Origin: an uncultured Gammaproteobacteria bacterium
GTDB lineage: Bacteria; Pseudomonadota; Gammaproteobacteria; Pseudomonadales; Azotimanducaceae
Length of the DNA: 33,252 nt
NCBI GenBank assembly: GCA_913051785.1
Contig: CAJXCK010000017.1
Coordinates: 1-33,252, forward strand
Reading direction: 5' to 3'
Shown: positions 5,961 to 23,915 of the stretch, in pieces
Layout: every line of letters starts with the position of its first letter
Numbering within the stretch: position 1 is the first letter of the stretch
The notes under the pieces: model-generated
What the model was told of the DNA's origin: nothing
Databases searched by the model: none
Seen by the model: only the letters and a program-made list of their open reading frames with translations
Made by a program: the position numbers and the translations under genes

Positions 5961-8201
5961 CTAGATGTCGATACTGAATTTCACCCCGAGGTTTCGGCCT
6001 GGAAGAGGCACTTCGTTTTTGACAAACGAACTGTGATTCCTCGCAACCTCGTCCATGAGGTTGTTACCAAAGGCGGTCAAATTCAGAACTAACCCGGAAT
6101 CGAATTGGATCGACTTGTTGGCTCTCAGGTTCAACATTTGGTATCCCTCTGTTGCCGTCTCACCAATCGCTGTATCACTCTGCTTTCCGACATCTTTCAA
6201 AGATAGTCGAACAGAGAGTGTGTCCTCGAGATACGCGATAGAGTAGATGTTCCTTGCAGGTATGATTCTGGGTACATTTCCGCCATCAGAGAATTCGGCG
6301 GTGACAGAATCTCTTCCGTAAGACAATGTTAGGTTGCCTCGAGAAAGATCAAAGGTTTTACCGATCTCTAGTTCATATCCATTAAAGTCGGCATCCTGCT
6401 GAAGCCATTCTGCATGAGGTAGGTCATGTCCGTGGGGATCCGCACTAGCTCCCGCATCCCCGTTATCATGATCGTCATCCTCTTCATCCATAAGATAGAT
6501 ATAGTCCGAGACACTATTGGCATAGAAAGTTAACTCACCAAAAAAACCCTGGTTTTGAAAGTTTAGGGATATATCTACGTTGTTCGATCTCTCCGCATTC
6601 AGACTTGGATTTCCCTCTTCAAATCTTCCTGTCGCTAAGTGAGGGCCATTCATTAGCATCTCTGTGGCGGCGGGAGCGCGTCCTACACTTGCGAACCCCA
6701 GATTAATAGATAGGGTTTCGCTAATATCGCGACTGACACCGACGGCAAAGCTGGTTTCGCTGTCGTCGCGGTCTATGATGTCAATCTCCTCCTCGTGAGG
6801 CTCATCATCGTCGTGAGGCTCTCCATCATGCGGATCTTCTTCGTGAGCCAGCGAGCCTTTCGTGTTAGCCATATCGTGACGTAAGCCCAGGTCAAGGTTA
6901 AATGCTTCGAAGCTCCTGCTTGCAAAATAACCTATTGTATTCTCGGTCCTCTCGGTCGGCCTCATGAAAGCTTCCGCGCCGATAATCGCGATCTCCTCTT
7001 GTGAGGAGTTAAAGCTAATCTTTTGGTTTAGTGCGTCGGTGCTTAGATCGATAGTTGCCCCGAATTCGGTTGAGTCATTTGTGAACACTGTCGGACCTTC
7101 ATCTTCGTGCCCTGCGTGTCCCGCATGTGCTCCTTCTTCCTCCTCATGTTGTTCCGTAAGTTCGTATTCGGAATCTCTGAAGAAATAGTTGATGCCTTTT
7201 AAGATCCCAGCATCAAGAGTAAGAGATCCTTCCAAGTTCACGATATTGAAATCGGTGGTGGAAAAGATTCTTTCATCTTCGTGCTCATCGTGATCATCCC
7301 CATGGTCATCGTCATGGTCACCGTCATGGTCATCGTCGTCATGGTCATCATCCGATGCCGCGTCAGGAGCCTCTTCTTCATCATGCTCTTCTCCGTGAAA
7401 GGGGATGCCATACAAGCTTTCACTGTTGCTATACGATAGTCCGAAATGGCCCCAGTCTTCGTTAAGAGATATGCCGAATCGGCTCTTTGTAGTTGCGAAA
7501 TCCGAATTGTTTACGAAGCCACTTTCTTCGTCGTGTTCGTCTTCTCCTACATGCTCGTCCTCATGGATGATCGCGCCGTCAGGTACGTCATAGTTCTCCA
7601 GATCGCTATCAGAGTATGCTGCGAATAGATTTAAGCCCCCGATGTTCGTCGCTACCGATGCAGTTTGCGCATCTCCCTCGTTAACTGACTGTGTTTCGAG
7701 GCCTAGGGAGATATCAACGCCTTCAACGTCTGTCCTGGCAATCGTTTCATCTACCACATTGACTATTCCGCCGATTACCCCATTGGAGTAAAGCAGAGAG
7801 GCAGGTCCTTTAATAATTTCGACCTGTTGAGCGTGATTAAAATCAACCTCGTTGACGTGGTCGGCGCCCAAGCCAGTGACATCTCTAATGACCATGCCGT
7901 TATTGAGAACTCTTACACGGGTGCCAGACATACCACGTATGATCGGCTGACCCACGGCCGCCCCATAATCTGCGGAAGCAACTCCTAGCAGACCGTCTAC
8001 TGTCTCACCGAGACTCTGCGAGGGATTGCTTGAAAGCTCTGCTTCGCCGATAACGTGAAGTGGATCTGCGATGGTGGAGACTTCGCTCTTCAAAATCGCT
8101 GATTGAACAATGACTTCCTCAATTATTTCATCCGCCGCGGCAGAACGGGCGAGGAAAACGCCGATTAAAACGAAACTAACTAAACCAACTAGCCTATTCA
8201 C
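5961..8201 (-). CDS. znuD: ZnuD-like TonB-dependent outer-membrane zinc receptor with His/Asp/Glu-rich loops
   Basis: A 746-aa outer-membrane receptor. It starts at GTG (8201) with GGAGG 6 bases upstream. Residues 1-23 are a signal peptide (ARSAAA), followed by a TonB-box-like EEVIV at about 28-32. The plug domain spans about 45-155 (RGMSGTRVRVLNNG, VEIIKGPASLLYSNGVIGGIVNVVD, typical of ZnuD-type receptors), and a beta-barrel ends in a C-terminal FSIDI. Five stretches extremely rich in His/Asp/Glu lie at about 213-226, 269-310, 351-368, 453-472 and 572-598, and are probably extracellular metal-capturing loops. A perfect Zur operator overlaps the promoter, which supports zinc as substrate. The gene symbol is by family resemblance. 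Copper or nickel transport is less likely given the Zur site. Confidence 0.9.
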   Translation of the reverse strand: MNRLVGLVSFVLIGVFLARSAAADEIIEEVIVQSAILKSEVSTIADPLHVIGEAELSSNPSQSLGETVDGLLGVASADYGAAVGQPIIRGMSGTRVRVLNNGMVIRDVTGLGADHVNEVDFNHAQQVEIIKGPASLLYSNGVIGGIVNVVDETIARTDVEGVDISLGLETQSVNEGDAQTASVATNIGGLNLFAAYSDSDLENYDVPDGAIIHEDEHVGEDEHDEESGFVNNSDFATTKSRFGISLNEDWGHFGLSYSNSESLYGIPFHGEEHDEEEAPDAASDDDHDDDDHDGDHDDDHGDDHDEHEDERIFSTTDFNIVNLEGSLTLDAGILKGINYFFRDSEYELTEQHEEEEGAHAGHAGHEDEGPTVFTNDSTEFGATIDLSTDALNQKISFNSSQEEIAIIGAEAFMRPTERTENTIGYFASRSFEAFNLDLGLRHDMANTKGSLAHEEDPHDGEPHDDDEPHEEEIDIIDRDDSETSFAVGVSRDISETLSINLGFASVGRAPAATEMLMNGPHLATGRFEEGNPSLNAERSNNVDISLNFQNQGFFGELTFYANSVSDYIYLMDEEDDDHDNGDAGASADPHGHDLPHAEWLQQDADFNGYELEIGKTFDLSRGNLTLSYGRDSVTAEFSDGGNVPRIIPARNIYSIAYLEDTLSVRLSLKDVGKQSDTAIGETATEGYQMLNLRANKSIQFDSGLVLNLTAFGNNLMDEVARNHSSFVKNEVPLPGRNLGVKFSIDI

Positions 8202-8259
8202 TAGATACCTCCGGTTAAAAACTAATACTTAAAGTGGCGGACAGATCCGCTGGGCGAGG

Positions 8260-8289
8260 ATTATACGGTATAATGTTATACTATAACAT
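8260..8289 (-). promoter_or_regulatory. Zur operator overlapping the promoter of the ZnuD-like receptor
   Basis: Positions 8273-8289 read ATGTTATACTATAACAT, a perfect 17-bp palindrome with a single central base. It matches the core of the enterobacterial Zur box (GTTATA-N-TATAAC with flanking AT) at every position. On the minus strand a consensus -10 TATAAT (8265-8260) lies 7 bases downstream, so the operator covers the spacer and the weak -35 region. Zn-Zur bound here would exclude RNA polymerase. The start codon is about 70 bases downstream. Site and promoter are seen in sequence; repression by the Zur encoded at 21758 is inferred. Confidence 0.92.
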
Positions 8290-8316
8290 CTCTTTTCGGT
8301 GGGCGGCTGTCTGGCC

Positions 8317-9876
8317 TCAATTGACGGTCATTTCCCGTCCAACAACCCTAACCGCTAGCGTTTCTTCTGTACCTTCAAAGATCGACAATACCTTCGCATC
8401 AACAAAATGACGGCTCACCTCAGTTTCTTGGGCATATCCCATACCTCCGTGAAGTTGTAGGGCATCACGGGCTACCTTTTCTGCTGACTGACAGGCGAAG
8501 AGTTTCACGAGGTTCGCATCCAGTGCTCCACCTCCTTGTTCCATTTTTTTTGCGACATCAAGAGTGTAAGTTCGGCTCGCTGAGATGAGACCTGCGATAT
8601 CCGCGATTTTTCGAAGCGTAAGCGGATGGTCGATGAGCTTTTTATTAAAGATTGAGCGGTCGGTTGCAAAAGCTTTGGTGCTTTCATAAGCAGAGCGCAT
8701 CAGACCGCATGCTCTGGCAGCAGTCTGAAGTCTCCCGTTCAGGAATCCTTTCATCGTATAATAAAAACCGCGGTTGAGCCCGGTTTCGCCGCCAATCAGG
8801 TTCTCTTCGGGCACAAAGAAATCGGTATAAGACATTTCGAATGAGTGCATGCCACGGTAACCGAGTGTTTTGATGGCTTTTCCTGTCATACGGCCACCAC
8901 CGTCCTGAGAGAATTCAAACTCGTCTGATTCGGAGGAGGGTTTTTCTACCATAAAAAGAGAAAGTCCCTTGTGAGACTTTTCAGTCTTATCCGTTCTTGC
9001 CAGGACGAGTATGACGTTTGCTGCACCAGCAAAGGTGCACCACAGTTTGCTTCCGTTAAGTATATAACCACCCTCGGTCTTGGCTGCGGATAGAGACACC
9101 GATGCGACATCAGAACCCGCATTGGCCTCTGTCACCGAGACTGCACACAAGGTTTCACCAGAGGCGATTTTGCCTAACCATTTGTTCTTTTGCTGCTCCG
9201 TTCCCCCCTCTAATAGAGCTCTAGCTATTATTTCAGGGCGAGTTATAAGGCTTCCAGCCGCGCCAAGGGAGCCGGCGCTTAGCTCTTCGGTGACAATTAC
9301 CATTGTGATGAGATCTTCTCGGTCATCGGGTTTGAGGCCTCCGAACTGCTCTGGAATGCTCAATCCGAAAGTGCCAAGGTCCTTTAAAGGTTCAATCAGG
9401 CTCCTCGGTACGAGTAGATTTTCATTATGAATCTTCTGAGCGACTGGTTTAATGTGCTTATCAGAAAAATCCGAGAAGGTTTTTCGGATGATTTCATGCT
9501 CGCTGGCTAGCTCGATTTCGGGCAGAGAAGCATTCGCATATTGTCTTCCTATTCTCATTGCATTTTCGGGTTTCAGCGGCTCATTTATGGCGTCTTTTCC
9601 GCTTATTTCAGACTGAGACAATCCGTATACGTTCGGGTCGGCCAACAGAAGTTGATCTAGTTCCCGCAATGTGGAGGCAAGGAAGTATGTCGCAAGGCCC
9701 TGATGTTCCCCCTCCGAGTGGTTTACAAGACTCATTGCGGCAGAAAAACGAGCCTTGGCCATGGCTAGATCAAATATTTCGATCTGATCCTCGAAAAGAT
9801 CGGCACCAACGTTCATGCACGCTTGGTCCAGTAGTGCGGAGTATTCTTTCGCGCTGTTTTCTAGATCATTGTTCAA
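8317..9876 (-). CDS. Acyl-CoA dehydrogenase with N-terminal extension, methylsuccinyl-CoA dehydrogenase-like
   Basis: A 519-aa FAD-dependent acyl-CoA dehydrogenase starting at TTG (9876) behind GGGAG. The canonical fold occupies about residues 125-519: IPEQFGG, the substrate/FAD motifs AVSVTEANAGSD and LNGSKLWCTFAG, the RGMHSFEMSY block, GFLNGRLQTAARA, LHGGMGYAQE, and the catalytic-base motif FEGTEETLA near the C-terminus. The first roughly 120 residues are a helical extension absent from ordinary enzymes (about 380 aa). This extension together with the RGMHSFE...GRGFY-type region recalls (2S)-methylsuccinyl-CoA dehydrogenase (Mcd) of the ethylmalonyl-CoA pathway, but no other gene of that pathway is nearby. 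The acyl-CoA dehydrogenase family call is firm; the Mcd assignment is tentative. Confidence 0.85.
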   Translation of the reverse strand: MNNDLENSAKEYSALLDQACMNVGADLFEDQIEIFDLAMAKARFSAAMSLVNHSEGEHQGLATYFLASTLRELDQLLLADPNVYGLSQSEISGKDAINEPLKPENAMRIGRQYANASLPEIELASEHEIIRKTFSDFSDKHIKPVAQKIHNENLLVPRSLIEPLKDLGTFGLSIPEQFGGLKPDDREDLITMVIVTEELSAGSLGAAGSLITRPEIIARALLEGGTEQQKNKWLGKIASGETLCAVSVTEANAGSDVASVSLSAAKTEGGYILNGSKLWCTFAGAANVILVLARTDKTEKSHKGLSLFMVEKPSSESDEFEFSQDGGGRMTGKAIKTLGYRGMHSFEMSYTDFFVPEENLIGGETGLNRGFYYTMKGFLNGRLQTAARACGLMRSAYESTKAFATDRSIFNKKLIDHPLTLRKIADIAGLISASRTYTLDVAKKMEQGGGALDANLVKLFACQSAEKVARDALQLHGGMGYAQETEVSRHFVDAKVLSIFEGTEETLAVRVVGREMTVN

Positions 9877-10063
9877 GCCTAATCTCCCGCTAATAATTTT
9901 CGCACCGATAGATGAAAGCTCTTTCGGAACCGGATTCTAGCCCTCGTTGTGGATAATCACCACGGTGCACGAAGGCCCAGGCGCTAGGTTAGACACAACT
10001 GGTTTTTGTTCAAGGGAACAAAATTAGGACTGCCCAGTGTCTTTTTGGATAGCCTTTTAAGAC

Positions 10064-10417
10064 TTACTCATGAGATGCACCGTCGGTAAGACCTATTTGA
10101 TCTTGAGCGAGACTCACCATTTGATCGAGACAGGCATAGTTGACAGATATTTGGCTGGGATCACGTCGCCTCCTGTGGTGGGTGTATACCCCGCAGTTTT
10201 TACAAAAATAATGCTCAGCGATGTGTTTGTTCCATTGGTAGCAAAGGAGTTCCTCGGCTCCCTCAATTAAAGAAAAAAGATTCCGATCGATTGGCTTCAT
10301 GATGATCGACTTCTTAACGCAGAGTGAACAGTTACATCTGTAGACATTCGCAGCCAGATCATCTGTCTCTATAGAAAAGATGACTTTTCCGCAGTGGCAG
10401 CTACCTTTAAATCGCAT
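10064..10417 (-). CDS. GFA/CENP-V-domain zinc-binding protein
   Basis: A 117-aa protein of the glutathione-dependent formaldehyde-activating enzyme (GFA) fold. The cysteine pattern CHCG...CNCSLC...FCKNCGVYTHH is the conserved zinc-site set of this family. I prefer the ATG at 10417 (MRFKGSCHCG), which has GGAG 9 bases upstream, to the in-frame TTG 15 bases earlier. Family members are carbon-sulfur lyase-like, but most, including this one, have no assigned substrate. It is separate from the upstream and downstream genes (gaps near 190 bp). Confidence 0.85.
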   Translation of the reverse strand: MRFKGSCHCGKVIFSIETDDLAANVYRCNCSLCVKKSIIMKPIDRNLFSLIEGAEELLCYQWNKHIAEHYFCKNCGVYTHHRRRRDPSQISVNYACLDQMVSLAQDQIGLTDGASHE

Positions 10418-10610
10418 CTTTTTCGACTCCAAAGTCTATCGGAAGAGCTTAGCATTTCCGGAGTTTGTGTACTCTCTGAGGAGCGTGATAGAGAAATCAC
10501 AGTTCTTGATTTCTGATGGGTGGTGATAGTATTCCGCCCCGCTAGGAAGGCGGGACTGCAACAAAAAGGGATTTTGAACCATAATCATTTTATCAAATAA
10601 GAATTAATCA

Positions 10611-11005
10611 GTGAGCAGTCCAAAAAAAAGCTTTGATCAAGCAACCGAGAAACTAGATAAATTTTCGATTGTCTTGTCGCTAGCTTGTCTGATTCACTGC
10701 TCGTCAATCCCCGTGCTTTTTTTCTGGGTGGTTATCTGTCATCAGTATTGTTTTTAACCGAGCACCTATTCCATGAAGTCGCTTTTATCTTGGCTATTCC
10801 GATAAGTTTATTTTCGTTGATAAAAGGCTATAAATTACATTTACAGCGTTGGGTTTTAGGAACCGGATTGTTTGGTCTTACGTTGATGGGACTCGGTCTT
10901 TTTTTCCACGCGATAGTTTCTATGGAGATCGTCCTGACTATTGCAGGCTCATGTCTGATGGTGGTAGCACACGGTCGAAACTTATCTTTCTTAACTGCAC
11001 GTTAA
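10611..11005 (+). pseudogene. MerC-family membrane protein interrupted by a -1 frameshift at a T7 run
   Basis: Frame 1, from GTG 10611, encodes DKFSIVLSLACLIHCSSIPVLF, the MerC N-terminal helix with its HC motif. It then meets a stop at the codon ending about 10754. The rest of the family (TEHLFHEVAFILAIPISLFSLIKGY, then GSCLMVVAHGRNLSFL) continues one base back in the -1 frame to the TAA at 11005. The junction is seven Ts at 10717-10723, giving the zero-frame slippery heptamer T_TTT_TTC (10718-10724). A -1 slip there restores a 131-aa protein, matching the 129-aa paralogue at 22225. It could be a recent pseudogene, a one-base homopolymer sequencing error, or programmed frameshifting. MerC-like proteins are small four-helix inner-membrane metal transporters. 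Confidence 0.8.
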
Positions 11006-11069
11006 AGCGGATTCGGCTTACGGTAGTGGGTATGAGATTTGTTATTTATAAAAGAAGCCTGAAGAGCTA

Positions 11070-11645: not shown

Positions 11646-11685
11646 GGTGACGGTGGGCGTCTAAATGGTGATCATAGGAGCTATA

Positions 11686-12099: not shown

Positions 12100-12196
12100 G
12101 CCTTGCTCATATGGAAACCTCTAACGAGATTAGTGAGGACTGCTTCGGGCATAAGATCTAATACAGAGAGCTCTTATTAATTATGGAAAGTTTGGC

Positions 12197-13126: not shown

Positions 13127-13189
13127 TAGTGTTCTTAGTCGGTCGCGGTCTAATCCTGCCAATGGTTAACCAATTTAATAGGAGCGAGA

Positions 13190-15340
13190 ATGAAGAGAGT
13201 TTTAGGGCTGATCAGCTTTTTGTTGGCAATACAATTTATGTCGGGTTGTGACACGGGAAGTACGTCATTGGAGAAATCAGATGAGGTGACAGTAAGTGAT
13301 GCCGAGTTAGCTGGTAATCCGTTTCGTCAAGACTGGGAGACTCCATACGGGGTGCCACCTTTCTCTGATATAGAAAATAGCGACTATTTACCTGCCATTA
13401 AAAAAGCAATTCTCGAAATGCGAGATGAGATTGAAACGATTGTGAGCAATTCGGAAGAGCCAACCTTTGCTAATACGATTGTAGCGCTTGAGCTCGCAGG
13501 CGAGTCGCTCAATAAAGTGTCCAGAACATTCGGAAATATTACGGGTACGGATACAGATGAAGAACTGAGGAATCTTGAGACAGAAATTTACCCCATGCTG
13601 ACTCGAGAGTCTGACGCGATCAGTTTGAATGAAGTTTTGTATGAACGTGTGAAGGGAGTTTATGACTCAAGAGAATCGTTAGGCTTGAATGAGCAGGATA
13701 GTCGCCTTTTAGAGCTTACCCACAGAAGTTTTATTCGATCGGGAGCTGCGTTCTCACCTGATGTAAAAGGTAAAATAGCATCGATTAATGAAGAAATATC
13801 TGCTCTCACGACCAAGTTTGCTCAGAATCTGCTTCTCGAGACAAAAGCGTTTAGGCTTGAGTTGAAGTCCGATGAAGAGGTCTCGGGGCTTAGTGACGAC
13901 TTTAAATCGGCGATTTGGGACGAGGAAAAAGAGGCGTGGGTTGTTGGCCTGAATAGGTCTTCCTACGAAAGCTTCATGGTTCAATCGAATAATCGATCAC
14001 TGCGCGAAAAATTATTCAACGGCTACAGACTTCGAGCGACTCAGGGAGATAGAGACAACGGCCCGATTGCTATTCAGATAGCCAAGTTGCGTGCCGAGCG
14101 TGCCGAGTTAATGGGCTATGAATCCCATGCTCACTATGTTTTGGAATACAACATGGCGAAGAGCCCGCAAGGCGCAGAAGATTTTCTACTGAAAGTCTGG
14201 GCGCCCGGACTTGAGCAAGCGAAGAAAGAGCGAGCAGATATGCAAGCGATGTTAGTCGACGAGACATTTCAGGCGTGGGATTGGTGGCACCTTGCTGAAA
14301 AACTGCGTCTTCAGCGCTACGAACTTGATGAGAATCAAACAAAACCTTATTTCAAGTTGGAAAACGTTCAGGCCGGGGCTTTCGCGATGGCAGAGAAATT
14401 GTTTGGACTGAGCTTTGAGGAGGTTGACGTTGAAGGTTGGAATCCCGTGGTGGTTTCCTTCGACGTGAAAGATGAAGAGGGCAAACATCTTGGGTTGTTT
14501 ATGACTGATATGTACGCGCGCGATTCCAAACGCGGGGGTGCTTGGATGAGTAGTTATAGAGGCACCTCAAACATAAACAATGATGCGATTAGACCTCTCA
14601 TTACAAACAACATGAATCTCTCAATGCCCCCGGATGGAGAGCCTACGCTCATGCGATATTCCGAGGTAGAGACGCTCTTCCACGAGTTCGGTCATGGGCT
14701 GCACGGATTAATGACTCAAATTGACTATCCAACGTTCTCCGGAGTCGATGGTCCCCGGGATTACACTGAGTTTCCCGCACAAATTCTTGAGCATTGGGTG
14801 AGTCAACCAGAGATGTTGGAAATGTACGCGACCCACTTTGAGACAGGAGATGTCATTCCGACTGACCTTGTGGAGAAGATTCGAGTCGCCGGGAATCATA
14901 ACCAAGGGTTTTACACGACTGAGTATGTTGCCGCCTCCCTGCTCGACTTAGCTTGGCACTCTTTATCATCTGATGAGGTGGCTGAGATCACTGATGCGCG
15001 TACTTTTGAAAAAGAAGTGTTAGAGGGTTATGGGCTGATACCTGAGATTGAACCACGATATCGTTCCCAATATTTCAGTCATATCTTTGCAGGGGGCTAT
15101 TCTTCGGGATACTACGCCTATTTGTGGTCAGAGATTTTGGATGCAGATGGCTTTGCTGCTTTCCAGGAAGTGGAGGATATATGGGACCCCCTTCTGGCAG
15201 CAAGGCTACAAAAATGGGTCTATGAGTCGGGCGGCCTGAAGCCTGCGGAGGAGTTGTATCGAAATTTTCGAGGCAAAGATCCTGATATAGGTCCGTTGCT
15301 TGTTGGACGTGGTTTTGAGAAACCCTCGCCCTCAAATTGA
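13190..15340 (+). CDS. M3-family zinc metallopeptidase lipoprotein (Dcp-like)
   Basis: A 716-aa oligopeptidase, probably peptidyl-dipeptidase Dcp-like. ATG 13190 follows GGAGCGAG. The signal sequence ends in lipobox FMSGC, so it is exported and membrane-anchored, unlike cytoplasmic E. coli Dcp. It starts with NPFRQDWETPYGVPPFSDIE, the usual M3 N-terminal motif. It has the zinc site HEFGHGLHG at residues 498-506, the downstream Glu in DYTEFPAQILEHW, and the substrate-binding SHIFAGGYSSGYYAYLWS block. Length is normal. It would trim peptides in the periplasm. Its stop overlaps the convergent HupE-like gene by 9 bases. Confidence 0.93.
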   Translation: MKRVLGLISFLLAIQFMSGCDTGSTSLEKSDEVTVSDAELAGNPFRQDWETPYGVPPFSDIENSDYLPAIKKAILEMRDEIETIVSNSEEPTFANTIVALELAGESLNKVSRTFGNITGTDTDEELRNLETEIYPMLTRESDAISLNEVLYERVKGVYDSRESLGLNEQDSRLLELTHRSFIRSGAAFSPDVKGKIASINEEISALTTKFAQNLLLETKAFRLELKSDEEVSGLSDDFKSAIWDEEKEAWVVGLNRSSYESFMVQSNNRSLREKLFNGYRLRATQGDRDNGPIAIQIAKLRAERAELMGYESHAHYVLEYNMAKSPQGAEDFLLKVWAPGLEQAKKERADMQAMLVDETFQAWDWWHLAEKLRLQRYELDENQTKPYFKLENVQAGAFAMAEKLFGLSFEEVDVEGWNPVVVSFDVKDEEGKHLGLFMTDMYARDSKRGGAWMSSYRGTSNINNDAIRPLITNNMNLSMPPDGEPTLMRYSEVETLFHEFGHGLHGLMTQIDYPTFSGVDGPRDYTEFPAQILEHWVSQPEMLEMYATHFETGDVIPTDLVEKIRVAGNHNQGFYTTEYVAASLLDLAWHSLSSDEVAEITDARTFEKEVLEGYGLIPEIEPRYRSQYFSHIFAGGYSSGYYAYLWSEILDADGFAAFQEVEDIWDPLLAARLQKWVYESGGLKPAEELYRNFRGKDPDIGPLLVGRGFEKPSPSN

Positions 15341-16117
15341 TAACGCGCGGCTGATTCCCCACCAGAGACCGATCAGCCCTATAAGGGCTGATCCGGGTCT
15401 CGTAAACCAAGTCCGATATTTTGAGGTATCGAATTTGTCTCGGAGAGCCAGTCTCACGGCCATTACTGGCCCAGCGACAAGTGCGACCACACCAATCTGA
15501 CCAACTTCAACGCCGATATTGAAACCAATTAGAGCGCTCCAGAAATGAGTTTCACTGAGATCAAATTCACTGATAAAGGCCGCAAAACCTAACCCATGGA
15601 TTAATCCGAAAATCATGATGATTACGGGCCTCCATTTAGTGATGTCGCGCACGAATAGGTTCTCTATAGCTACGAACGCAATGGTGAAAGCAATGAGAGG
15701 TTCGATGATCTCTCCTGATACTTTGATCGTTCCGCTGGCCGCCAGGGCGAGCGTGATTGTGTGAGCTATCGTGAAAGCGGATATCTGCCAAACAAGCGAA
15801 CCCAAACGTAGTGAGGCCAGAAATAGGGCTATTACGAATAGCATATGGTCGTAACCGCCCAGGAGAATGTGGTCCATGCCGATTGCTATGTAGGTACTAA
15901 GAATTGAAATGCTAGAGGTTTTTGTTGCGATGCTTTCGATCTGGTGCGCATTTTCCTCTAAGAGAAAGTCGCCATTTGATCGATTCATTTCCGCCAACAT
16001 GGCACATACCACAGGGTCGATATTATCTCGACCAGGCACGCAGAGCTCGTCTTCAGGGTGTCCACGAGCGTTCGTCGCGGAAAAAAAGAGAATTCCAAAA
16101 ATAAAGAGGCAGCGCAT
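15332..16117 (-). CDS. HupE/UreJ-like membrane protein (possible metal transporter)
   Basis: About 261 aa, starting at ATG 16117 (a TTG 24 bases upstream is the alternative). A signal peptide ends around ATNARG, followed by a short periplasmic segment with two cysteines (ELCVPGRDNIDPVVCAML) and then about six helices. Conserved blocks match the HupE/UreJ_2 family: GMDHILLGGYDHMLFVIALF, FTIAHTITLALA, FGLIHGLGFA, and GFNIGVEVGQ. The His/Asp residues inside the helices are thought to bind metal. Relatives include nickel-linked HupE/UreJ, and such proteins also occur beside zinc-regulated genes. Placed between metallopeptidases and near the Zur cluster, zinc is a reasonable guess. I found no Zur box in front of it. 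Confidence 0.83.
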   Translation of the reverse strand: MRCLFIFGILFFSATNARGHPEDELCVPGRDNIDPVVCAMLAEMNRSNGDFLLEENAHQIESIATKTSSISILSTYIAIGMDHILLGGYDHMLFVIALFLASLRLGSLVWQISAFTIAHTITLALAASGTIKVSGEIIEPLIAFTIAFVAIENLFVRDITKWRPVIIMIFGLIHGLGFAAFISEFDLSETHFWSALIGFNIGVEVGQIGVVALVAGPVMAVRLALRDKFDTSKYRTWFTRPGSALIGLIGLWWGISRALSI

Positions 16118-16224
16118 GGCGCGAGTATACCTGCAATGCAAATCATCTCGGTGAGGTGAACATTTTTTTCTACCAAAATATATTTTCGTCTCAAAATCTC
16201 AGCGGGGCTATTTCTTGTGCGAAT

Positions 16225-16437
16225 ATGGCAAAGGTGCTCAAAAAAACTGAATCACGAACGAACACAAAAGAGATTGAGTTGGCACTGTATGAAGGGCTTC
16301 TGGAAAGCATCTACAAAAGATTAGAATGGGAGAAATTAAGTGGAAATGATAATGCACTTCAAAAGATACATTCTCATAGCATGCCTGTTCTTCCCTCTAA
16401 CATTGCCAGCGCTTTCGATAAAAGACCTGCCTATTAG
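16225..16437 (+). CDS. Doubtful small ORF ahead of the M14 peptidase
   Basis: A 70-codon frame (MAKVLKKTESRTNTKEIELALYEG...) runs from ATG 16225 and overlaps the peptidase start by about 86 bases in another frame. It has a helical, charged middle part (ELALYEGLLESIYKRLEWEKL), but no visible ribosome-binding site. The last third simply reads the peptidase signal-peptide DNA in the wrong frame. It could be a real upstream gene with a shared 3' end, or chance. I keep it only as a low-confidence entry because it fills a gap of about 230 bases. Confidence 0.25.
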   Translation: MAKVLKKTESRTNTKEIELALYEGLLESIYKRLEWEKLSGNDNALQKIHSHSMPVLPSNIASAFDKRPAY

Positions 16438-18952
16438 CGATCGTGCTCTTGATAGCAGCATTCCAGCTCCGGAGGAAGTTATAGGGTCGGCGATTGGTTC
16501 AAGGCATCTGTTTCACTATGAAATATTGAAATATATGCGTTTTCTTGCAGAGGTTTCACCCAGGATGGTCTCACTAGGGGCTCACGCGAAGAGTTATGGG
16601 GGAAAGGATCTGCCAAGCTTTGTCATTTCATCTGAGAAAAATATTTCGAACCTAGACAGAATTAGAGAGAGCAGGGCAGAGATCACGCGATCCAGTAATA
16701 ACCCGAATCTCGAAAATATGCCCGTCGTAGTCCATATGATGTATAGCATTCATGGCAATGAGCCAAGTGGAGCCAATCTCACACCGTTGCTGGCCTACTA
16801 CTTGACCGCGTCTAAAGATCAAGTGTTATTGAATCAGTTAGAAGATGTTGTCTTGATATTAAACCCTGTTCTGAATCCTGATGGTCTCGATAGGTTTGCG
16901 GCATGGACAAACGATAATCGTGGCATGACTCCAAATGCAGACCCCGAAGATAGAGAACACCGCGAGATTTCTCCAAATGGCCGAACTAACTATTATTGGT
17001 TTGATCTAAATCGGGATTGGTTAGCGCACCAGCACCCAGAAAGCCAGGGCCGACTGGCTTTGTTTCACGAATGGAAGCCGAATGTTCAGCTAGATTTTCA
17101 TGAGCAAGGAAGTAACAGTAGCTTTTTCTTTATGCCCGGTAAGCCAGAAAGAACCTATCCGCTTACGCCGAAAATAAATCAGGTTCTAACTGAGAAGATC
17201 AGTGAATTTCATCGCGAGGCTTTCGATCAAGATGGAATATTAACGTTCTCGAAAGAAGGGTATGACGATTTTTACGTCGGAAAAGGATCGACTTATCCGG
17301 ACTTGTTTGGCTGTGTAGGGATACTCTTTGAGCAACCCTCTTCGAGGGGCGCCGTGCAAAACACGATTAATGGGACTTTGGCGTTTGAAGAAACGATCCT
17401 GAATCAGTTTCGAGCTTCAATGTCTTCGATAAAGGCGTCAGCGTCTCTGAAGAGCGAATTATTAGGTTACCAACGCGACTTTTATCAATCGGTCCAGCGA
17501 AAAAAGATCAAAGGCCACTACTTAGCTACGATCGAAGGGGACAAGGCGAGACTTGCTGAGTTTGCTCGAGTGCTTAGGGGGCATCAGATAACGGTTAAGT
17601 TACTCGCGAAAGATGCAACAGCTGGAGGGACTGAATATAAAGCCGGTGCAACATTAGCTATTCCTGCTGATCAGATTCAATCCACCTATCTGAGCGCGAT
17701 TTGGAGAAGGCAGGTTAATTTCCAAGAAAACGTTTTCTATGATGTTTCGACCTGGACTCTGCCCCTAGCTTTTGGGCTGACTCATACCATTGAACCGGTT
17801 AGAGGGGTTACCACTGAAGAGTTATCTGAGCAGCTAAGTCCTCAATCCAATGAACTAGTCCGATCTCCGGTTGGTTACCTTGTTGATTGGCGAGATTCGG
17901 CGACGCCGAAGCTGCTGTATCTGCTATTAGACACAGAGGCGAAAATTCGAGTTGCAACACGTCCGCTGACGGCAAATATTAAAAATCGAGGAGTTCGATC
18001 ATTTGGGTACGGCACCCTGTTTGTATCCGCTGAATTGGCAGAGAGTTTTCCGGATGACGCGCTCAAAATTCTCGACGCAGCGGCCCAGACGGGCACTGGA
18101 ATTCATCCAGTAGAGAGCAGTACGACGCCAAATGGTATCGATATGGGTAGTCGCTACTTTAAGGTCATACCTAAGCCCAGGGTGTTACTCATGAGCGGCG
18201 CTGGCACGAACGCATATCGCGTTGGGGAGATCTGGCATCTACTTGATACCAGGGTTCAAATGCCGGTCACTCGAGTGGGAGTCGATAGGCTGCTTGATAT
18301 TGATCTTAGTAACTACACACACCTGTTGCTTACTGACCCTCCAAAGGGTTCCGAGAAAGATTTAGTAACAAAAATTGATTCCTTTGTCCGCTCCGGTGGC
18401 GTCATGTGGGCGCAAGGCGATAGAACAATAAAATGGATTGATAAACAGTCACTTAGCGACATTATCTTCAAAGAAACTAAGTCCTCGCGAAACCGGTCCG
18501 AGCTCGAGAAAAAAATGGATAACCCTGACACGCTTGTTAAAGAACTCGAGGCTTTGTTGCCGGAGAGAAAACCATTTGTAGCCTCCGAGACCGACTCGGC
18601 CTACCAGCTGGTGCGAGGAGCAATACTGCGAGGGCTTATCGATGTATCGCATCCGTTGGGTTACGGTTTTGAGAGAAACGAGCTCCCCGTCTTGCGTCGA
18701 AATTCTACCTTCGTAGCGCGATCAAAAAATGCCTATGCGACACCTCTTCTCTATGCTGAAAGCCCATTGATATCGGGTTATATGTCAGAAGAAAATCTTG
18801 AATTGGCCGCGGGTTCAGCGGGGATTTTAGTAGACCCGAAAGGAGAGGGCGCCATAGTGCTGTCTCTCGATATACCCGCTTTCCGAGCTCATTGGTGGGG
18901 AACTCAAAAGCTTCTTCTGAACACCATTTTTTTTGGTAGCTTAATCAAGTAG
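16352..18952 (+). CDS. Secreted M14-family zinc carboxypeptidase-like protein
   Basis: An 866-aa exported protein. I start it at ATG 16352 (MHFKRYILIACLFFPLTLPALS, a signal peptide, GGAA 8 bases upstream). Two earlier in-frame starts at 16340 and 16346 are possible. The M14 domain has zinc ligands His134 and Glu137 in SIHGNEPSGAN and His250 in LDFHEQGSN. In between are LNPVLNPDGLDRFAAWTN (the substrate-binding NPDG/R region) and FDLNRDW. The C-terminal 450 residues include a flavodoxin/glutamine-amidotransferase-like segment (RVLLMSGAGTNAYRVGEIWHLLD; LLLTDPPKGSEKDL...GGVMWAQGD). This architecture is common in Bacteroidota and marine Gammaproteobacteria. It likely digests exogenous peptides or peptidoglycan stems. 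Confidence 0.88.
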   Translation: MHFKRYILIACLFFPLTLPALSIKDLPISDRALDSSIPAPEEVIGSAIGSRHLFHYEILKYMRFLAEVSPRMVSLGAHAKSYGGKDLPSFVISSEKNISNLDRIRESRAEITRSSNNPNLENMPVVVHMMYSIHGNEPSGANLTPLLAYYLTASKDQVLLNQLEDVVLILNPVLNPDGLDRFAAWTNDNRGMTPNADPEDREHREISPNGRTNYYWFDLNRDWLAHQHPESQGRLALFHEWKPNVQLDFHEQGSNSSFFFMPGKPERTYPLTPKINQVLTEKISEFHREAFDQDGILTFSKEGYDDFYVGKGSTYPDLFGCVGILFEQPSSRGAVQNTINGTLAFEETILNQFRASMSSIKASASLKSELLGYQRDFYQSVQRKKIKGHYLATIEGDKARLAEFARVLRGHQITVKLLAKDATAGGTEYKAGATLAIPADQIQSTYLSAIWRRQVNFQENVFYDVSTWTLPLAFGLTHTIEPVRGVTTEELSEQLSPQSNELVRSPVGYLVDWRDSATPKLLYLLLDTEAKIRVATRPLTANIKNRGVRSFGYGTLFVSAELAESFPDDALKILDAAAQTGTGIHPVESSTTPNGIDMGSRYFKVIPKPRVLLMSGAGTNAYRVGEIWHLLDTRVQMPVTRVGVDRLLDIDLSNYTHLLLTDPPKGSEKDLVTKIDSFVRSGGVMWAQGDRTIKWIDKQSLSDIIFKETKSSRNRSELEKKMDNPDTLVKELEALLPERKPFVASETDSAYQLVRGAILRGLIDVSHPLGYGFERNELPVLRRNSTFVARSKNAYATPLLYAESPLISGYMSEENLELAAGSAGILVDPKGEGAIVLSLDIPAFRAHWWGTQKLLLNTIFFGSLIK

Positions 18953-18957
18953 TGTCT

Positions 18958-18978
18958 CCCAGTGAGAGGCTCGCTGGG
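18958..18978. terminator. Hairpin between convergent M14 and DUF3299 genes
   Basis: The arms CCCAGTGAG and CTCGCTGGG pair over 9 bp (one T-G wobble) around the loop AGG, five bases after the M14 stop. No T-run follows on either strand, so it is at best a weak or Rho-assisted terminator, or a 3'-end protecting hairpin. Confidence 0.45.
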
Positions 18979-19050
18979 GTATTAAATGCGACTTGGAATG
19001 GCTAGAGGATAGATTTCTTTCAACCCAGATCGCCGAAATATTACGCGAGA

Positions 19051-19503
19051 TTATTCGTAGAGCTCTATTTTCTCGGCGTTGATAGAATATGACGCCGTGG
19101 CCAGCTCGCCCTCGACCCTCGTTGTGTAAATCTTTCCTTCAACCCACACTGGCTGCCACATGGCGTCCATTTCGTGTCCGGGTTCGTATATTGCGTAGAC
19201 GGTCTGGTTAGGTGGCGGGGGAGGCTCATGGATGCAGGCGCCAAAATAAGGGACAAGTAGAAAGCTTGTGACAGTTTGCTCGTCATATTCAAGAGGCACA
19301 ATAAACCCTGGAATTCGAACTGCTTTTTTGTTGAGGTCTGTGCGAATGCGCTCTCCCCAAGGAACGCTGTCGTCGAGGGCGGCAGGGCTATCAAGATCCG
19401 GCAGTAGGTCCTGCCATCCAAGCGTTTCAGTTGCATGGAGTCGTGCTCCCAAAAAACTGAGAACTAAAGTGACGAAGAAATAAACCTTAAGCTGTCTTGC
19501 CAT
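19051..19503 (-). CDS. DUF3299-family periplasmic protein, zinc-locus component
   Basis: A 150-aa secreted protein: signal peptide MARQLKVYFFVTLVLSFLGARLHA, then the DUF3299 core VRIPGFIVPLEYDEQTVTSFLLVPYFGACIHEPPPPPNQTVY and the MWQPVWVEGKI motif. The GACIH and PPPPPNQ blocks are diagnostic of the family; the Cys/His could touch metal. As I recall, DUF3299 proteins accompany Zur-controlled ABC systems such as Pseudomonas PA4063-PA4066 and Vibrio zrg. Here it is divergent from an ABC ATPase/permease pair, with a Zur-type operator only 21-37 bases before its ATG, so co-regulation is likely. No strong ribosome-binding site is seen (AGG directly abuts the ATG). The biochemical role is unknown. 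Confidence 0.87.
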   Translation of the reverse strand: MARQLKVYFFVTLVLSFLGARLHATETLGWQDLLPDLDSPAALDDSVPWGERIRTDLNKKAVRIPGFIVPLEYDEQTVTSFLLVPYFGACIHEPPPPPNQTVYAIYEPGHEMDAMWQPVWVEGKIYTTRVEGELATASYSINAEKIELYE

Positions 19504-19523
19504 CCTACATGTGTACCAATAAA

Positions 19524-19540
19524 AAGTTACAATGTATCAT
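19524..19540. promoter_or_regulatory. Zur-type operator in the divergent DUF3299 / ABC-transporter promoter region
   Basis: Positions 19526-19538 read GTTACAATGTATC, matching 9 of 12 defined positions of the Zur core GTTATA-N-TATAAC. Two of the three differences are the T-to-C and A-to-G changes also found at the symmetric positions of the palindrome at 23916. Outer bases extend the match. On the minus strand it lies between a -35-like TTGATG (19543-19538) and a -10-like TATTGG, so it would block the DUF3299 promoter. It is 53 bases before the ABC ATPase start and could control both directions. The function is inferred from match and context. Confidence 0.72.
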
Positions 19541-19592
19541 CAAAAATGGTGTTAATTCCCATAGGGGATCAAATTAAAGGAGCAAACAGGAC

Positions 19593-20291
19593 TTGTCGAC
19601 CCTAGAGAACACAACCCCAGCTGTTTATTTGTCGGAAGTTGGTTTTGTATTCGACCAAGGTGAAGAGCGAGTGTTGGAGATACCGTCCTGGGAGGTTGCA
19701 CGCTCAGAGCGAGTGTTCTTGCAGGGGGAATCAGGAAGCGGAAAGTCGACCCTTCTGTCTATTTTATCAGGAATGTTTGTTCCCTCTTCGGGACAAGTCT
19801 CGGTGCTTGGTACTGAGTTGTCAGCTTTATCGACAAGAGAAAGAGACAGGTTTAGAGCTGGGAATATTGGATTCGTCTTTCAGCAGTTTAACTTGATACC
19901 TTATTTGTCTGTGCTGGATAACATTCTTTTGGCCGCCCAATTCGGAGAAATTGCTGACGTCTCGTCTAGAGCGCGGGCGGAAGAGCTTCTGATCAAAGTT
20001 AATTTAGAAGTAGAGCTGCACGGTAGACCTGCAGGTCAATTGAGTATCGGTCAGCAGCAGCGAGTGGCAATTGTCCGGGCTTTAATTAATTCTCCAGAGC
20101 TGTTGCTTGTCGACGAACCAACGTCGGCTTTGGATCATCGGAATAGAGATTCTTTTCTTAATTTACTAACCGAGATCCTAGATGAATCGGGTTGCGCGAT
20201 GGTTTTCGTCAGCCACGATCCCGAAATTGGAAATTATTTTGAGAATAAGTTGACAATGTTAGACCTCAATAAAGCTGTAAAAGCAGTGTGA
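19593..20291 (+). CDS. ABC transporter ATP-binding protein (LolD/MacB type), zinc locus
   Basis: A 232-aa ATPase of the LolD/FtsE/MacB class. It starts at TTG 19593 with AAAGGAG about 10 bases upstream. Walker A GESGSGKST lies at residues 45-53, Q-loop FVFQQFNLIPYLSVLDN around 95-110, signature LSIGQQQRVAIVRAL from 150, Walker B LLLVDEP at 170-176, and the H-loop in VFVSHD. It pairs with the permease that begins in its stop codon (TGATG). The Zur-type operator upstream and the DUF3299 and zur genes around it place it in zinc homeostasis, not lipoprotein sorting. Transport direction is unknown: this ABC class usually drives periplasmic mechanics or extraction, not classical import. Confidence 0.92.
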   Translation: MSTLENTTPAVYLSEVGFVFDQGEERVLEIPSWEVARSERVFLQGESGSGKSTLLSILSGMFVPSSGQVSVLGTELSALSTRERDRFRAGNIGFVFQQFNLIPYLSVLDNILLAAQFGEIADVSSRARAEELLIKVNLEVELHGRPAGQLSIGQQQRVAIVRALINSPELLLVDEPTSALDHRNRDSFLNLLTEILDESGCAMVFVSHDPEIGNYFENKLTMLDLNKAVKAV

Positions 20292-21697
20292 TGAAGATGT
20301 TGTCTGCATTGACGAATGTTGCCCTCCAAAGTCTAAGGTATAGATGGGGTGGGGTGTTGCTTACGGTTGCGGCTGTTGCATTGAGTGTTTTTGTTCTGTT
20401 GGGTGTTGAACATGTTAGACAAGAAGCAAAGTCCGGTTTTGCGAGCACGGTATCCGGTGTTGATTTGATCGTAGGTGCTCGGACGGGAGAAATTAATCTC
20501 CTGCTCCTATCAATTTTTAGGATTGGAAATGCAACGACTAATGTTGAGTGGGGGACTGTTGAAGAAATTGAAGATCTTGAGAAGGTTGCATGGTTGGTGC
20601 CGATCACTTTAGGGGATTCCCACAAGAATTTTCGTGTGGTGGGCACCACGCAAGATTTCTTTGAAAGATATCAATATGGCAGAAAACAACCGTTGGTATT
20701 CGACAAGGGTTCTCAGTTTGAGGCATTGCAGGATGTTGTACTCGGATCCCGTGCCGCAACTGAGCTTGCATACCAGCTCGGAGACTCACTTGTTCTGAGT
20801 CACGGAATGGCGGATACCAGTTTCACTCATCATGATGAATTACCGTTCAACGTGGTTGGTATTTTAGAACGCTCTGGAACTCCTATAGACAACGCTCTAT
20901 TCGTCAGTCTCGAGGCGATAGACGCAATACACGATGATGAAAAGGGCGGTCCACACGAAGAGCATGAGGAAAGCCATAAAGGTCATGAGGATCATGACGA
21001 GCATGAATCCCACGATGATCATGACGAACACGAGGCGCACGAGCATGAGGAAAGCCATAAAAGTCATGAGGATCATGATGAGCATGAATCCCAGGATGAT
21101 CATGATGAACGCGGAGCTCATGATGATCATGAAGGCCACAATCATGGCCCCATCGGCACAGTTACCGCGTTGCTTGTTGGTCTGGAATCGCCAGCTTTTG
21201 CGTTACAGGTTCAAAGATCGATAAATGAATATCAGGGAGAAGCACTCCTAGCGATTTTGCCCGGAGTAGCCTTGGCGCAGTTGTGGGAGCTCATCGGCGG
21301 CGTAGAGAGCACTTTACGGGGAATATCGATCTTGGTCTTTATTTCCTCTATATTTGGGCTGAACGCCATGCTCTTGGCTTCAATGAGAGAGAGAAGGCGA
21401 GAAGTCTTCGTATTGCGTAGCATTGGCGCGCCATCTTGGTTCATCTTGGCTCTTTTACTCTTAGAGTCCTTGCTTATCGTCACCGTTGGGATCGCTACGG
21501 CTCTGGTAGGTCTGTTCGGAGCAATAGCAGCCATTAACGGTTTCTTAGCTGACCAAATTGGGGTCACGCTCTCAATGGCAATATTCAGTGAGGCCAGTGT
21601 CATTGCGATCGGACTTATCTACATTAGCTCTGTATTCTTGAGCCTCTTTCCTGCGGTCCAGGCATATAGGGCATCTCAGAACATATCATGGTCGTAG
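20291..21697 (+). CDS. FtsX/MacB-type ABC permease with a duplicated His-rich periplasmic insert
   Basis: A 468-aa permease. ATG 20291 overlaps the ATPase stop by one base (TGATG); GTG 20288 is an alternative. TM1 is at about residues 18-40 (GGVLLTVAAVALSVFVLLGV), then a periplasmic MacB-like domain (VSGVDLIVGARTGEINLLL...). Three C-terminal helices complete the FtsX fold (GISILVFISSIFGLNAMLL; LALLLLESLLIVTVGI; VIAIGLIYISSVFLSL). Between about residues 216 and 290 sits a stretch dominated by His, Glu and Asp, including two 27-residue near-identical copies, ending in HNHG. This can bind many zinc ions in the periplasm and may replace a separate zinc-binding protein, which is missing here. Related permeases lack such a long insert as far as I know. 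Confidence 0.9.
   Translation: MKMLSALTNVALQSLRYRWGGVLLTVAAVALSVFVLLGVEHVRQEAKSGFASTVSGVDLIVGARTGEINLLLLSIFRIGNATTNVEWGTVEEIEDLEKVAWLVPITLGDSHKNFRVVGTTQDFFERYQYGRKQPLVFDKGSQFEALQDVVLGSRAATELAYQLGDSLVLSHGMADTSFTHHDELPFNVVGILERSGTPIDNALFVSLEAIDAIHDDEKGGPHEEHEESHKGHEDHDEHESHDDHDEHEAHEHEESHKSHEDHDEHESQDDHDERGAHDDHEGHNHGPIGTVTALLVGLESPAFALQVQRSINEYQGEALLAILPGVALAQLWELIGGVESTLRGISILVFISSIFGLNAMLLASMRERRREVFVLRSIGAPSWFILALLLLESLLIVTVGIATALVGLFGAIAAINGFLADQIGVTLSMAIFSEASVIAIGLIYISSVFLSLFPAVQAYRASQNISWS
20960..21121 (+). repeat. Two tandem 81-bp units encoding a His-rich 27-aa repeat
   Basis: Unit 1 (20960-21040) and unit 2 (21041-21121) both begin GAGCATGAGGAAAGCCATAA and stay in register for 81 bases with a few substitutions. 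Both encode EHEESHK-(G/S)-HEDHDEHES followed by DDHDE. The copies keep the permease frame, so copy number can change by recombination without frameshift. The His-Asp pattern (HEDHDEH) is a likely metal ligand array. Confidence 0.93.
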
Positions 21698-21704
21698 GCG
21701 CTCC

Positions 21705-21738
21705 TTGGTAAAGTCTTTAGGATGTTATAAAGTAACAT
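21705..21738 (+). promoter_or_regulatory. Zur operator and promoter of the zur-merC operon
   Basis: Positions 21722-21738 read ATGTTATAAAGTAACAT, matching 14 of 16 defined positions of the Zur palindrome ATGTTATA-N-TATAACAT. A -10-like TATAAA (21726-21731) lies within it, and a -35-like TTGGTA (21705-21710) stands 15 bases before that. The ATG of zur is 19 bases downstream. This predicts negative autoregulation of zur. Site match is seen; binding is inferred. Confidence 0.88.
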
Positions 21739-21757
21739 TAAGGAATAGTGAGAGATA

Positions 21758-22228
21758 ATGAGAGACAAGGAAATAAAAAAAGCCCTTGTAGAGGCAGAAC
21801 GCCACTGCTCAGAGAAAGGAGTTAGGTTCACCGTCAAGAGAAAGTTGGTGTTCGAGGTTCTTTTGAAATCCGACAGGTCTCTTTCTGCCTACGAACTGGC
21901 TGATTATTGTCGTTCGGAGCAGGGTTCCGAACTACTCCCGATGTCGGTGTATCGCATACTAGACTTTTTGGAGAATGAAGGGCTGGTGCACCGCCTGAAA
22001 ACAACCAATAAATTTATTGCCTGCTCTCACATTTCGTGTGCTCACGAGCACCAGGCTTGGCAGTTTTTGATATGTCAGAACTGTGACAAAGTGAAAGAAG
22101 TTGATTTGGAGAAATCAATTGTGAACAAAATAGCTGATGCCATTCACGACGTTGGATTCCATATTGCCGGACGTCAATTAGAGCTTGAGGGCGTTTGCTC
22201 AGACTGTTCAGTTTCTAGAGGCCATTGA
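21758..22228 (+). CDS. zur: Zinc uptake regulator, Fur family
   Basis: A 156-aa Fur-superfamily repressor that binds DNA when zinc-loaded. The winged helix covers about residues 10-85 (GVRFTVKRKLVFEVLL; recognition region PMSVYRILDFLENEGLVHRL). The regulatory and dimerisation part has the sensory-site residues in CSHISCAHEHQAW and the structural zinc cysteines CQNC and CSDC near the end. SCAHEHQAWQFLICQNC resembles Zur more than Fur, which has the HHDH pattern. The Zur boxes in front of this gene, the receptor and the ABC locus support the identity. Its last codon overlaps the merC-like gene, so both are made from one mRNA. Confidence 0.93.
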   Translation: MRDKEIKKALVEAERHCSEKGVRFTVKRKLVFEVLLKSDRSLSAYELADYCRSEQGSELLPMSVYRILDFLENEGLVHRLKTTNKFIACSHISCAHEHQAWQFLICQNCDKVKEVDLEKSIVNKIADAIHDVGFHIAGRQLELEGVCSDCSVSRGH

Positions 22229-22614
22229 TAGCCGTGGCCTCTATGTTGCTCGACAGGGCCTCTATAGGGCTGTCAATTTTATGCGTTCTTCATTGCTTCG
22301 CGACGCCAATATTGTTGGCCTTTGCTCCATCATTATTAGCGTTGGGCGTGGCGGATGAAAAATTCCACTTTATTCTGATTTTTCTCATTATACCCGCCAG
22401 CCTCATAGCTCTTACTTTGGGGTGCAGACGTCACGGAGATATGTCCATTCTTTACTGGGGCTGCGGTGGCCTCATCGTTTTGTTGGGAACCTTATTGTTA
22501 GGCCATGACCTGTTAGGTGATGCGGGCGAAAAAATTATGACGGTTTTTGGTTCGGGACTAGTAGTCATTGGACACACGCTGAATTTTCGAGCTTGCAGGG
22601 TGAGCAGCTGCTAA
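22225..22614 (+). CDS. MerC-family inner-membrane protein in the zur operon
   Basis: A 129-aa, four-helix MerC-domain protein: SIGLSILCVLHCFATPILLAFAPSL with the HC motif and a Cys two turns earlier, DEKFHFILIFLIIPASLIALTLGCRRHGD, a glycine-rich third helix, and VVIGHTLNFRACR at the end. The TTG at 22225 overlaps the zur stop (a 4-base overlap). GTG 22234 or ATG 22243 are alternative starts, and the AGAGG site before them does not decide. MerC moves mercury in mer operons; no mer genes are here, and Zur-operon placement points to zinc. It is a paralogue of the interrupted gene at 10611. Confidence 0.85.
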   Translation: MIAVASMLLDRASIGLSILCVLHCFATPILLAFAPSLLALGVADEKFHFILIFLIIPASLIALTLGCRRHGDMSILYWGCGGLIVLLGTLLLGHDLLGDAGEKIMTVFGSGLVVIGHTLNFRACRVSSC

Positions 22615-22706
22615 CGCTAATCAGCCTCGGGTACGCTGTGCCTAAAACAACTCAAGCGATATTAGACAATAAATGTTCCCCCAATAGCCTCCGACAGATA
22701 AATTAA

Positions 22707-23843: not shown

Positions 23844-23915
23844 TTTTCCTCCTACAACAAGATGGGTCTGACCAAGTGCGGCCGGTGTTGGAAAGCGAGT
23901 CCACCAAGAATTCAG

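Follow-up and report, generated by a model that had tools for sequence, protein, structure and literature searches.

A predicted Zur regulon with a ZrgA-less, histidine-loop variant of the Zrg transporter in a gammaproteobacterial draft genome

A stretch of 33,252 nucleotides (nt), here called the window, was analyzed as a candidate zinc regulon. It is contig CAJXCK010000017.1 of assembly GCA_913051785.1, from an uncultured marine gammaproteobacterium of the Azotimanducaceae. Judged by sequence, the window holds a real Zur regulon, and this regulon includes a variant of the known Zrg transporter, i.e., one without ZrgA at its locus and with a histidine (His)-rich loop in its permease. The Zrg system itself is already known, and the new element is the ZrgA-less, His-loop variant. 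The draft genome comprises 134 contigs totaling 2.37 Mb, with a completeness of 93.45 and a contamination of 2.59, and the window corresponds to its contig C17.

The genes of the ATP-binding cassette (ABC) transporter and the loop were assigned as follows.

19051-19503, minus strand: zrgE-like DUF3299 protein (PF11736, E 1.6e-39), with a signal-peptide-like N-terminus judged by eye
19593-20291, plus strand: zrgC-like ATPase (PF00005), with nucleotide-binding motifs intact by eye
20288-21697, plus strand: zrgB-like MacB/FtsX-type permease (PF12704 and PF02687)
20948-21148, plus strand: His/Asp/Glu-rich loop part of the permease (model residues 219-285)

The Zur-regulated zrg operon of Vibrio parahaemolyticus is described as containing zrgE (DUF3299), zrgB (permease), zrgC (ATPase), zrgA (DUF2796), and zrgD (DUF2607) (PMC9817125), and the window set was therefore read as zrgE, zrgC, and zrgB. 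The ZrgC ATPase, the MacB-like ZrgB, and the DUF3299 protein ZrgE of a Zrg system were all recognized, but ZrgA (PF10986) was not found in the window locus, so that the set is filed as a variant and not as a typical member. ZrgD is described as missing from two Vibrionaceae species (PMC9817125). The ATPase is of the LolD/MacB type, and its best NCBIfam match was LolD, under the cut-off of that model. The zrgE-like protein matched PDB entry 4hsp (E 1.7e-25), which is PA4066 according to a published paper.

The permease was modeled from 32 sequences, with a mean predicted local distance difference test score (pLDDT) of 75.5 and a predicted template modeling score of 0.58. The fold of the model matches MacB and LolCDE, and the best PDB match was MacB 5gko (E 2.4e-14). 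A PDB sequence search with the permease returned weak FtsX/MacB matches only. Residues 219-285 have a pLDDT below 50. The domain with the loop is placed between helices 18-52 and 325-366 and is thus predicted to be periplasmic by analogy with MacB. As scored, the loop of the window permease is 76 residues long, His contributing 20 and Asp plus Glu 32 of them; at the corresponding place, the permease of another zrg locus of this genome, on contig C46, has 26 residues and no His. A similar His-rich loop is present in the ZrgA of C46 and is reported for the ZrgA of Vibrio cholerae (PMC9820375). No report of a His-rich ZrgB-type permease was recognized in the open-licence PubMed Central (PMC) literature.

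The distribution of this loop was compared with that of ZrgA. A stretch was scored as His-rich when any 40 residues of an open frame held at least 6 His. The relatives survey covered 58 genomes, the own genome included, under a "same genus" kinship label that is loose and spans genomes of 1.6 to 6 Mb. Eighteen relatives besides the own genome carry a permease with the insert (insert-type), 13 in the clade of the window permease and five in a distant clade. ZrgA was found in none of these 18 and in all 11 relatives with a canonical permease. The His-rich stretch was visible in all 18 insert-type relatives, partially in some, at contig ends. Nine of the 11 canonical relatives were scored and had no such stretch; of the other two, G040 is represented by locus L105 (same ZrgA place and score) and G057 is split over contigs and unscored. 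In G051, a broken ZrgA match was found together with no strong permease match.

The survey of named genomes covered 80 loci, and 14 of them were insert-type, including L135, which is broken off with four His visible. Fifty of the 80 were submitted to the ZrgA search and 49 were searched (14 insert-type and 35 canonical). ZrgA was detected in 0 of the 14 insert-type versus 31 of the 35 canonical genomes, and the canonical ones without ZrgA were L120 (short loop, three His), L133, L143, and L148. Eight of the 14 insert-type genomes were already among the relatives, i.e., the two sets overlap. The nearest named relatives of the window permease include L092 and L094 (K189A clade bacterium).

A draw of 369 genomes from the class gave a permease, at E 1e-20 or better, in 46 genomes, 34 with and 12 without ZrgA. 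A His-rich stretch was found in 10 of these 12 (the frame is broken in G453, and G389 is at the threshold); G123 and G282 showed neither the stretch nor ZrgA, and both of their permeases are at contig ends. Among the 34 genomes with permease and ZrgA, 27 were scored in a pooled table and none was His-rich. The rest are G000 (permeases of both types), the 142-residue fragment of G116 and the permease of G231 (no such stretch in either), and the unscored G138, G166, G251, and G400.

The pooled table holds 134 permease rows (130 different), with some genomes counted more than once and with the 31 named loci outside the ZrgA genome search typed by ZrgA presence at the locus. In it, ZrgA is missing from 28 of the 30 His-rich permeases and from 7 of the 104 others, i.e., 97 permeases that are not His-rich go with ZrgA. 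The two His-rich permeases with ZrgA are that of the window itself and L106. In the assemblies of L054, L055, L056, and L057, contig breaks fall within the His-rich repeat, and such breaks may conceal the loop in other drafts. Among viral contigs, six stretches matched a pattern, and a permease relative was encoded in none.

In a tree built by a quick method, the window permease belongs to a clade of 15 rows with a long stem (Shimodaira-Hasegawa-like approximate likelihood ratio test, SH-aLRT, 100). This clade is nested in a set of 64 rows (SH-aLRT 96) of mostly canonical, mostly ZrgA-bearing permeases. The distant clade consists of 13 MacB-type permeases (L200-L204, L245, L246, L249, L250, L252-L254, and L256), all His-rich and all from genomes without a ZrgA match. 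At six of its loci a zur-like gene was found, and at one, L202, a weak DUF3299 match. L247 and L255 are lone His-rich cases on long branches with unsure placement, and L106 is a weak case. The association between the loop and the absence of ZrgA is strong in counts and rests on few events.

Zur control is predicted from four conserved boxes, to which no strand was assigned.

8273-8289: Zur box 1, 5' of the ZnuD-like receptor gene, a perfect match to ATGTTATANTATAACAT
19524-19540: Zur box 2, in the divergent zrgE/zrgC promoter, with the sequence AAGTTACAATGTATCAT
21722-21738: Zur box 3, 5' of zur, with two mismatches to ATGTTATANTATAACAT
23914-23930: Zur box 4, 5' of the iron-type alcohol dehydrogenase (Fe-ADH) gene, with the sequence AGGTTACAGTGTAACAA

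An earlier sequence-only reading of the window had proposed boxes 1 to 3 as Zur-type operators and overlooked box 4; the three operators stand. Boxes 1 and 3 are the sole matches to ATGTTATANTATAACAT in the window at up to three mismatches, where 0.11 were expected, and 0 of 100 shuffles reached two. Box 2 has four mismatches to the motif of the sequence-only reading and one to the core GTTAYANTRTAAC. Since it was not returned at three mismatches, it is weak taken alone, but it is supported because a box in the same promoter recurs in relatives. A search of the whole draft for further sites, which had been suggested as a check, found the core in eight places at up to one mismatch, four of them in the window. 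Exact core matches were limited to two in the draft, i.e., boxes 1 and 4, both in the window; the core match of box 4 is at 23916. A reversed control pattern of the core gave 12 matches in the draft at up to one mismatch; by our arithmetic, this rate predicts approximately 0.17 core matches in the window, where four were observed. As judged by eye, three of the four outside matches lie within long open frames, and the fourth, on C63, lies approximately 30 nt 5' of a probable gene start, the gene showing no obvious connection to zinc. Box 4 is located approximately 70 nt 5' of the likely Fe-ADH start codon. The start is probably at 23843, not at 23981, and box 4 is therefore intergenic. A promoter scan of positions 19000-24100 found four promoters versus 6.6 in shuffles.

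Conservation of the boxes was scored with GTTAY-RNY-RTAAC at up to one mismatch, in stretches of 211-501 nt from 15 insert-type loci, the window counted in. The zrgE/zrgC promoter has a box in 10 of the 15 loci scored. The misses are L093, L098, L127, L130, and L135; in L127 and L135 the box is present beyond the scored stretch, and in L098 (guanine-plus-cytosine content 0.63) no box was found. A box was found 5' of zur in all nine loci that were scored, 5' of the receptor gene in 3 of 4 (in the miss, L096, the stretch is clipped by the contig end), and 5' of the Fe-ADH gene in 6 of 8 (misses L099 and L136). The background rate, measured on random 271-nt stretches from these loci, was 35 of 900, and true sites may be among the 35.

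The other genes next to the boxes were assigned as follows.

5961-8201, minus strand: ZnuD-like TonB-dependent receptor (Pfam Plug and barrel) with His/Asp-rich stretches
21758-22228, plus strand: zur (PF01475), best PDB matches 7dh7 and Escherichia coli Zur 4mtd
22225-22614, plus strand: merC-family membrane protein (PF03203, E 8.2e-27), overlapping zur by 4 nt
22707-23843, minus strand: Fe-ADH (PF00465), its ATG at 23843 preceded by AGGAGG

The identities given by the sequence-only reading, i.e., ZnuD-like receptor, DUF3299 protein, ABC/permease pair, zur, and merC, agree with the Pfam, NCBIfam, and PDB matches. That reading missed the published Zrg identity of the set, the absence of ZrgA at the locus, and the fourth box. 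The best NCBIfam match of the receptor was ZnuD at 226.9 bits, under the cut-off of 950, and it is called ZnuD-like only; its best PDB sequence match was ZnuD 4rdr (E 1e-35). The zur product is a FUR-family protein with two CxxC pairs, and its NCBIfam Zur score was 90.2, under the cut-off of 167. Relatives of merC and zur are both present in 9 of the 15 insert-type loci, the window included. Judging by titles, no link between MerC and Zur was recognized in the open-licence PMC literature (the paper with matching terms concerns zinc in plant defense), and no on-topic report of Zur with an iron-containing alcohol dehydrogenase was recognized there either. The Fe-ADH behind box 4 probably stands in for a zinc enzyme and would thereby spare zinc.

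Several further genes were observed around these loci. At L094, a CobW-type gene (16573-17676) is divergently oriented to the Fe-ADH gene, with a Zur box between the two, and the BLAST cluster with this CobW-type gene is represented in 9 of the 15 insert-type loci, the window not included. The window has a second MerC-family gene at 10685-11005 (PF03203) and, at 15332-16141, a HupE/UreJ_2 metal permease whose mature N-terminus is possibly His (cleavage by eye), which recalls the "anglerase" idea put forward in PMC12537917. Genes of M3 and M14 metallopeptidases, at 13190-15340 and 16340-18952, adjoin the zrg genes.

The sequence-only reading had regarded the window as a self-contained zinc system without znuABC. 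Pfam scans of 30 window open reading frames (ORFs) named no znuABC gene, which agrees with the second part of this claim. The components listed, i.e., receptor, periplasmic DUF3299 protein, inner-membrane ABC pair, and regulator, are present as well, but self-containment does not hold, since the genome contains a further zrg locus that has ZrgA and a separate zur. This canonical locus (L010, on C46, 6299-10820) encodes zrgB, zrgC, zrgE, ZrgA, a second zur, and merC, and is followed at the contig end by the start of a CobW-type gene (L004:2375-2620). ZrgA was found in this genome at the C46 locus only. A weak box with three mismatches lies between zrgA and zur on C46. The tetranucleotide distance of C46 to the own genome, 0.088, argues against a contaminant without being proof; 21 pieces of the own genome gave 0.062-0.133, and 23 loci of other organisms at least 0.147.

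The genome-wide search for znuABC, which had also been suggested, gave a single ZnuA-type match (PF01297), on contig C50. This match is closest to the Mn/Fe protein YfeA and is the only full-length ZnuA-type protein of the draft; a zinc-type ZnuA-family binding protein was not found in this 93.45% complete genome. The C50 locus (L011, 4997-8426) encodes a YfeABCD/SitABCD-like Mn/Fe transporter, a further point against self-containment, and no Zur-type site was found there at the thresholds used. The PF02535 match in this genome was under the cut-off and inside the ZrgA gene, and it was taken as spurious. Importers were also surveyed in 33 insert-type genome entries, which include eight same-genome pairs and were taken as 25 distinct genomes, several of them incomplete. 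The ZnuA family gave no match in 19 of the 25 and was present in six, i.e., G000 (a YfeA-like copy), G002 (fragments), G008, G030, G059, and G066. No ZIP match over the cut-off was found in 24 of the 25, the exception being G024 (the same as G060).

The joint best explanation is a zinc-starvation Zur regulon in which the permease loop captures zinc in the stead of ZrgA, and it is considered moderately probable. When zinc is present, Zur would sit on the four boxes and repress the genes, and when zinc is scarce they would be expressed, as the protein family and the boxes suggest. The ZnuD-like receptor would carry zinc over the outer membrane. At the inner membrane, zinc handling would be powered by ZrgC and ZrgB, as in the Zrg system, but with no ZrgA at the locus. 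The disordered His/Asp/Glu-rich periplasmic loop would most likely catch zinc and hand it to the moving domain, and in this way it may replace ZrgA. ZrgE and MerC would serve as accessories, and Fe-ADH would probably spare zinc by replacing a zinc enzyme. The simplest reading is that zinc capture, the job of soluble ZrgA elsewhere, is built into the permease.

Several points weigh against loop capture. ZrgA is described as essential to the V. cholerae operon and its His-rich loop as dispensable (PMC9820375); the insert thus resembles a dispensable part, and the loop alone may not suffice. Because this genome keeps ZrgA at the second locus, that ZrgA could serve both permeases. MacB-type proteins are described as usually being exporters (PMC11481552). 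In the class draw, eight genomes had ZrgA over the cut-off without a ZrgB match, and the two proteins are therefore not obligately linked. The seven pooled permeases with neither ZrgA nor a scored His-rich stretch also count here, although one of them, L135, is cut inside the loop, and the His-rich end is visible on a second contig of that genome (G014). In L106, ZrgA coexists with a weak loop. On the tree, His-richness requires six changes, four of them forced by supported branches. Independent pairs (n=4) gave approximately 1.8 in the expected way, 0.2 in the opposite way, and 2.0 without difference, which is not significant. As the loop arose few times, the association does not amount to independent statistical proof. 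Loss of a surface for ZrgA docking was looked for as well; 11 positions differ between variant and canonical permeases, and they are unclustered and uninformative.

Other explanations were weighed against loop capture. ZrgBC may be a MacB-type exporter that expels a metallophore or metal complex in zinc starvation, with the His-rich loop sensing or stripping metal. The MacB- and LolCDE-like fold is in line with this, as is the report that the Pseudomonas aeruginosa relatives act in exporting a complex of pyochelin and cobalt (PMC11481552). The V. cholerae system, however, is reported to help cells grow when zinc is limiting and is interpreted as an importer (PMC9820375), and handling of the metal itself would more readily account for a metal-binding loop. 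Moreover, no metallophore-synthesis family appeared in the Pfam scans of the 30 window ORFs, of which several are family-less, the rest of the genome being unsearched. Export is considered unlikely. It is similarly improbable that an unlinked periplasmic protein takes the place of ZrgA and that the loop is a zinc buffer only. A ZrgE relative is present in all 15 insert-type loci, and the nearby HupE/UreJ_2 permease has a possible mature N-terminal His; these would suit such a substitute, but in V. cholerae ZrgE is reported as unable to take over the role of ZrgA (PMC9820375). No further shared His-rich neighbor gene stood out among ORFs of at least 80 residues within 9 kb at the insert-type loci, while the genomes were unsearched for an unlinked one.

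That the C46-encoded ZrgA serves both permeases in this genome is regarded as very unlikely. ZrgA is there and the composition of C46 fits the genome, but a short-loop permease is encoded on C46 close to the ZrgA gene there, and the insert-type relatives and named genomes (eight genomes shared) gave no ZrgA match, so this permease type occurs without ZrgA elsewhere. An origin of the picture in chance boxes or a binning artefact is hardly credible. The 134-contig state of the draft, its contamination value, and the weakness of box 2 alone speak for it; the box counts against the control, the conservation of the boxes, and the composition speak against it.

The window locus shares the ATPase, the MacB-like permease, the DUF3299 protein, and Zur control (in the window, predicted from boxes only) with ZrgABCDE of Vibrio as described in PMC9817125 and PMC9820375. 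It differs in lacking ZrgA (DUF2796), which was not found in insert-type relatives either, and in having the His-rich permease loop, the divergent zrgE, and zur-merC downstream. PA4063-PA4066 of P. aeruginosa likewise has a separate ATPase, a MacB-type permease, DUF3299 (PA4066, 4hsp), and, as predicted for the window, Zur control (PMC11481552, PMC8561739); it includes the ZrgA homologue PA4063, unlike the window locus, and is read as a pyochelin-cobalt exporter in PMC11481552. MacB and LolCDE-type ABC transporters share the fold of the permease model, whereas the window permease adjoins zur, sits behind a Zur box, and has the His-rich loop. ZnuD, the closest solved relative of the receptor, shares the Plug/barrel and the His/Asp-rich stretches, but the receptor is far under the NCBIfam ZnuD cut-off. 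The Ang-1/Ang-2 domains on HupE/UreJ permeases share the idea of a permease-tethered metal catcher; as described in PMC12537917, they use the N-terminal His of a folded domain on another permease family, whereas the window has a His-rich loop.

It is tentatively proposed, as a possible rather than a probable generalization, that a marine gammaproteobacterial clade and the separate distant clade use a MacB-type ABC transporter without a soluble binding protein, in which a disordered His-rich periplasmic loop catches zinc, and that this transporter is the principal Zur-linked one for zinc where ZnuA, ZIP, and ZrgA are lacking. If true, this would make it an ABC importer that, unusually, has no soluble binding partner. 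A further candidate, for a zinc-sparing enzyme, is the Fe-ADH, whose gene follows a Zur box. The transport direction of Zrg is disputed, i.e., zinc import with ZrgA in Vibrio versus export of metal complexes in Pseudomonas. A natural ZrgA-less version with a probable metal-binding loop would offer a direct test of how this transporter acts when capture is built in.

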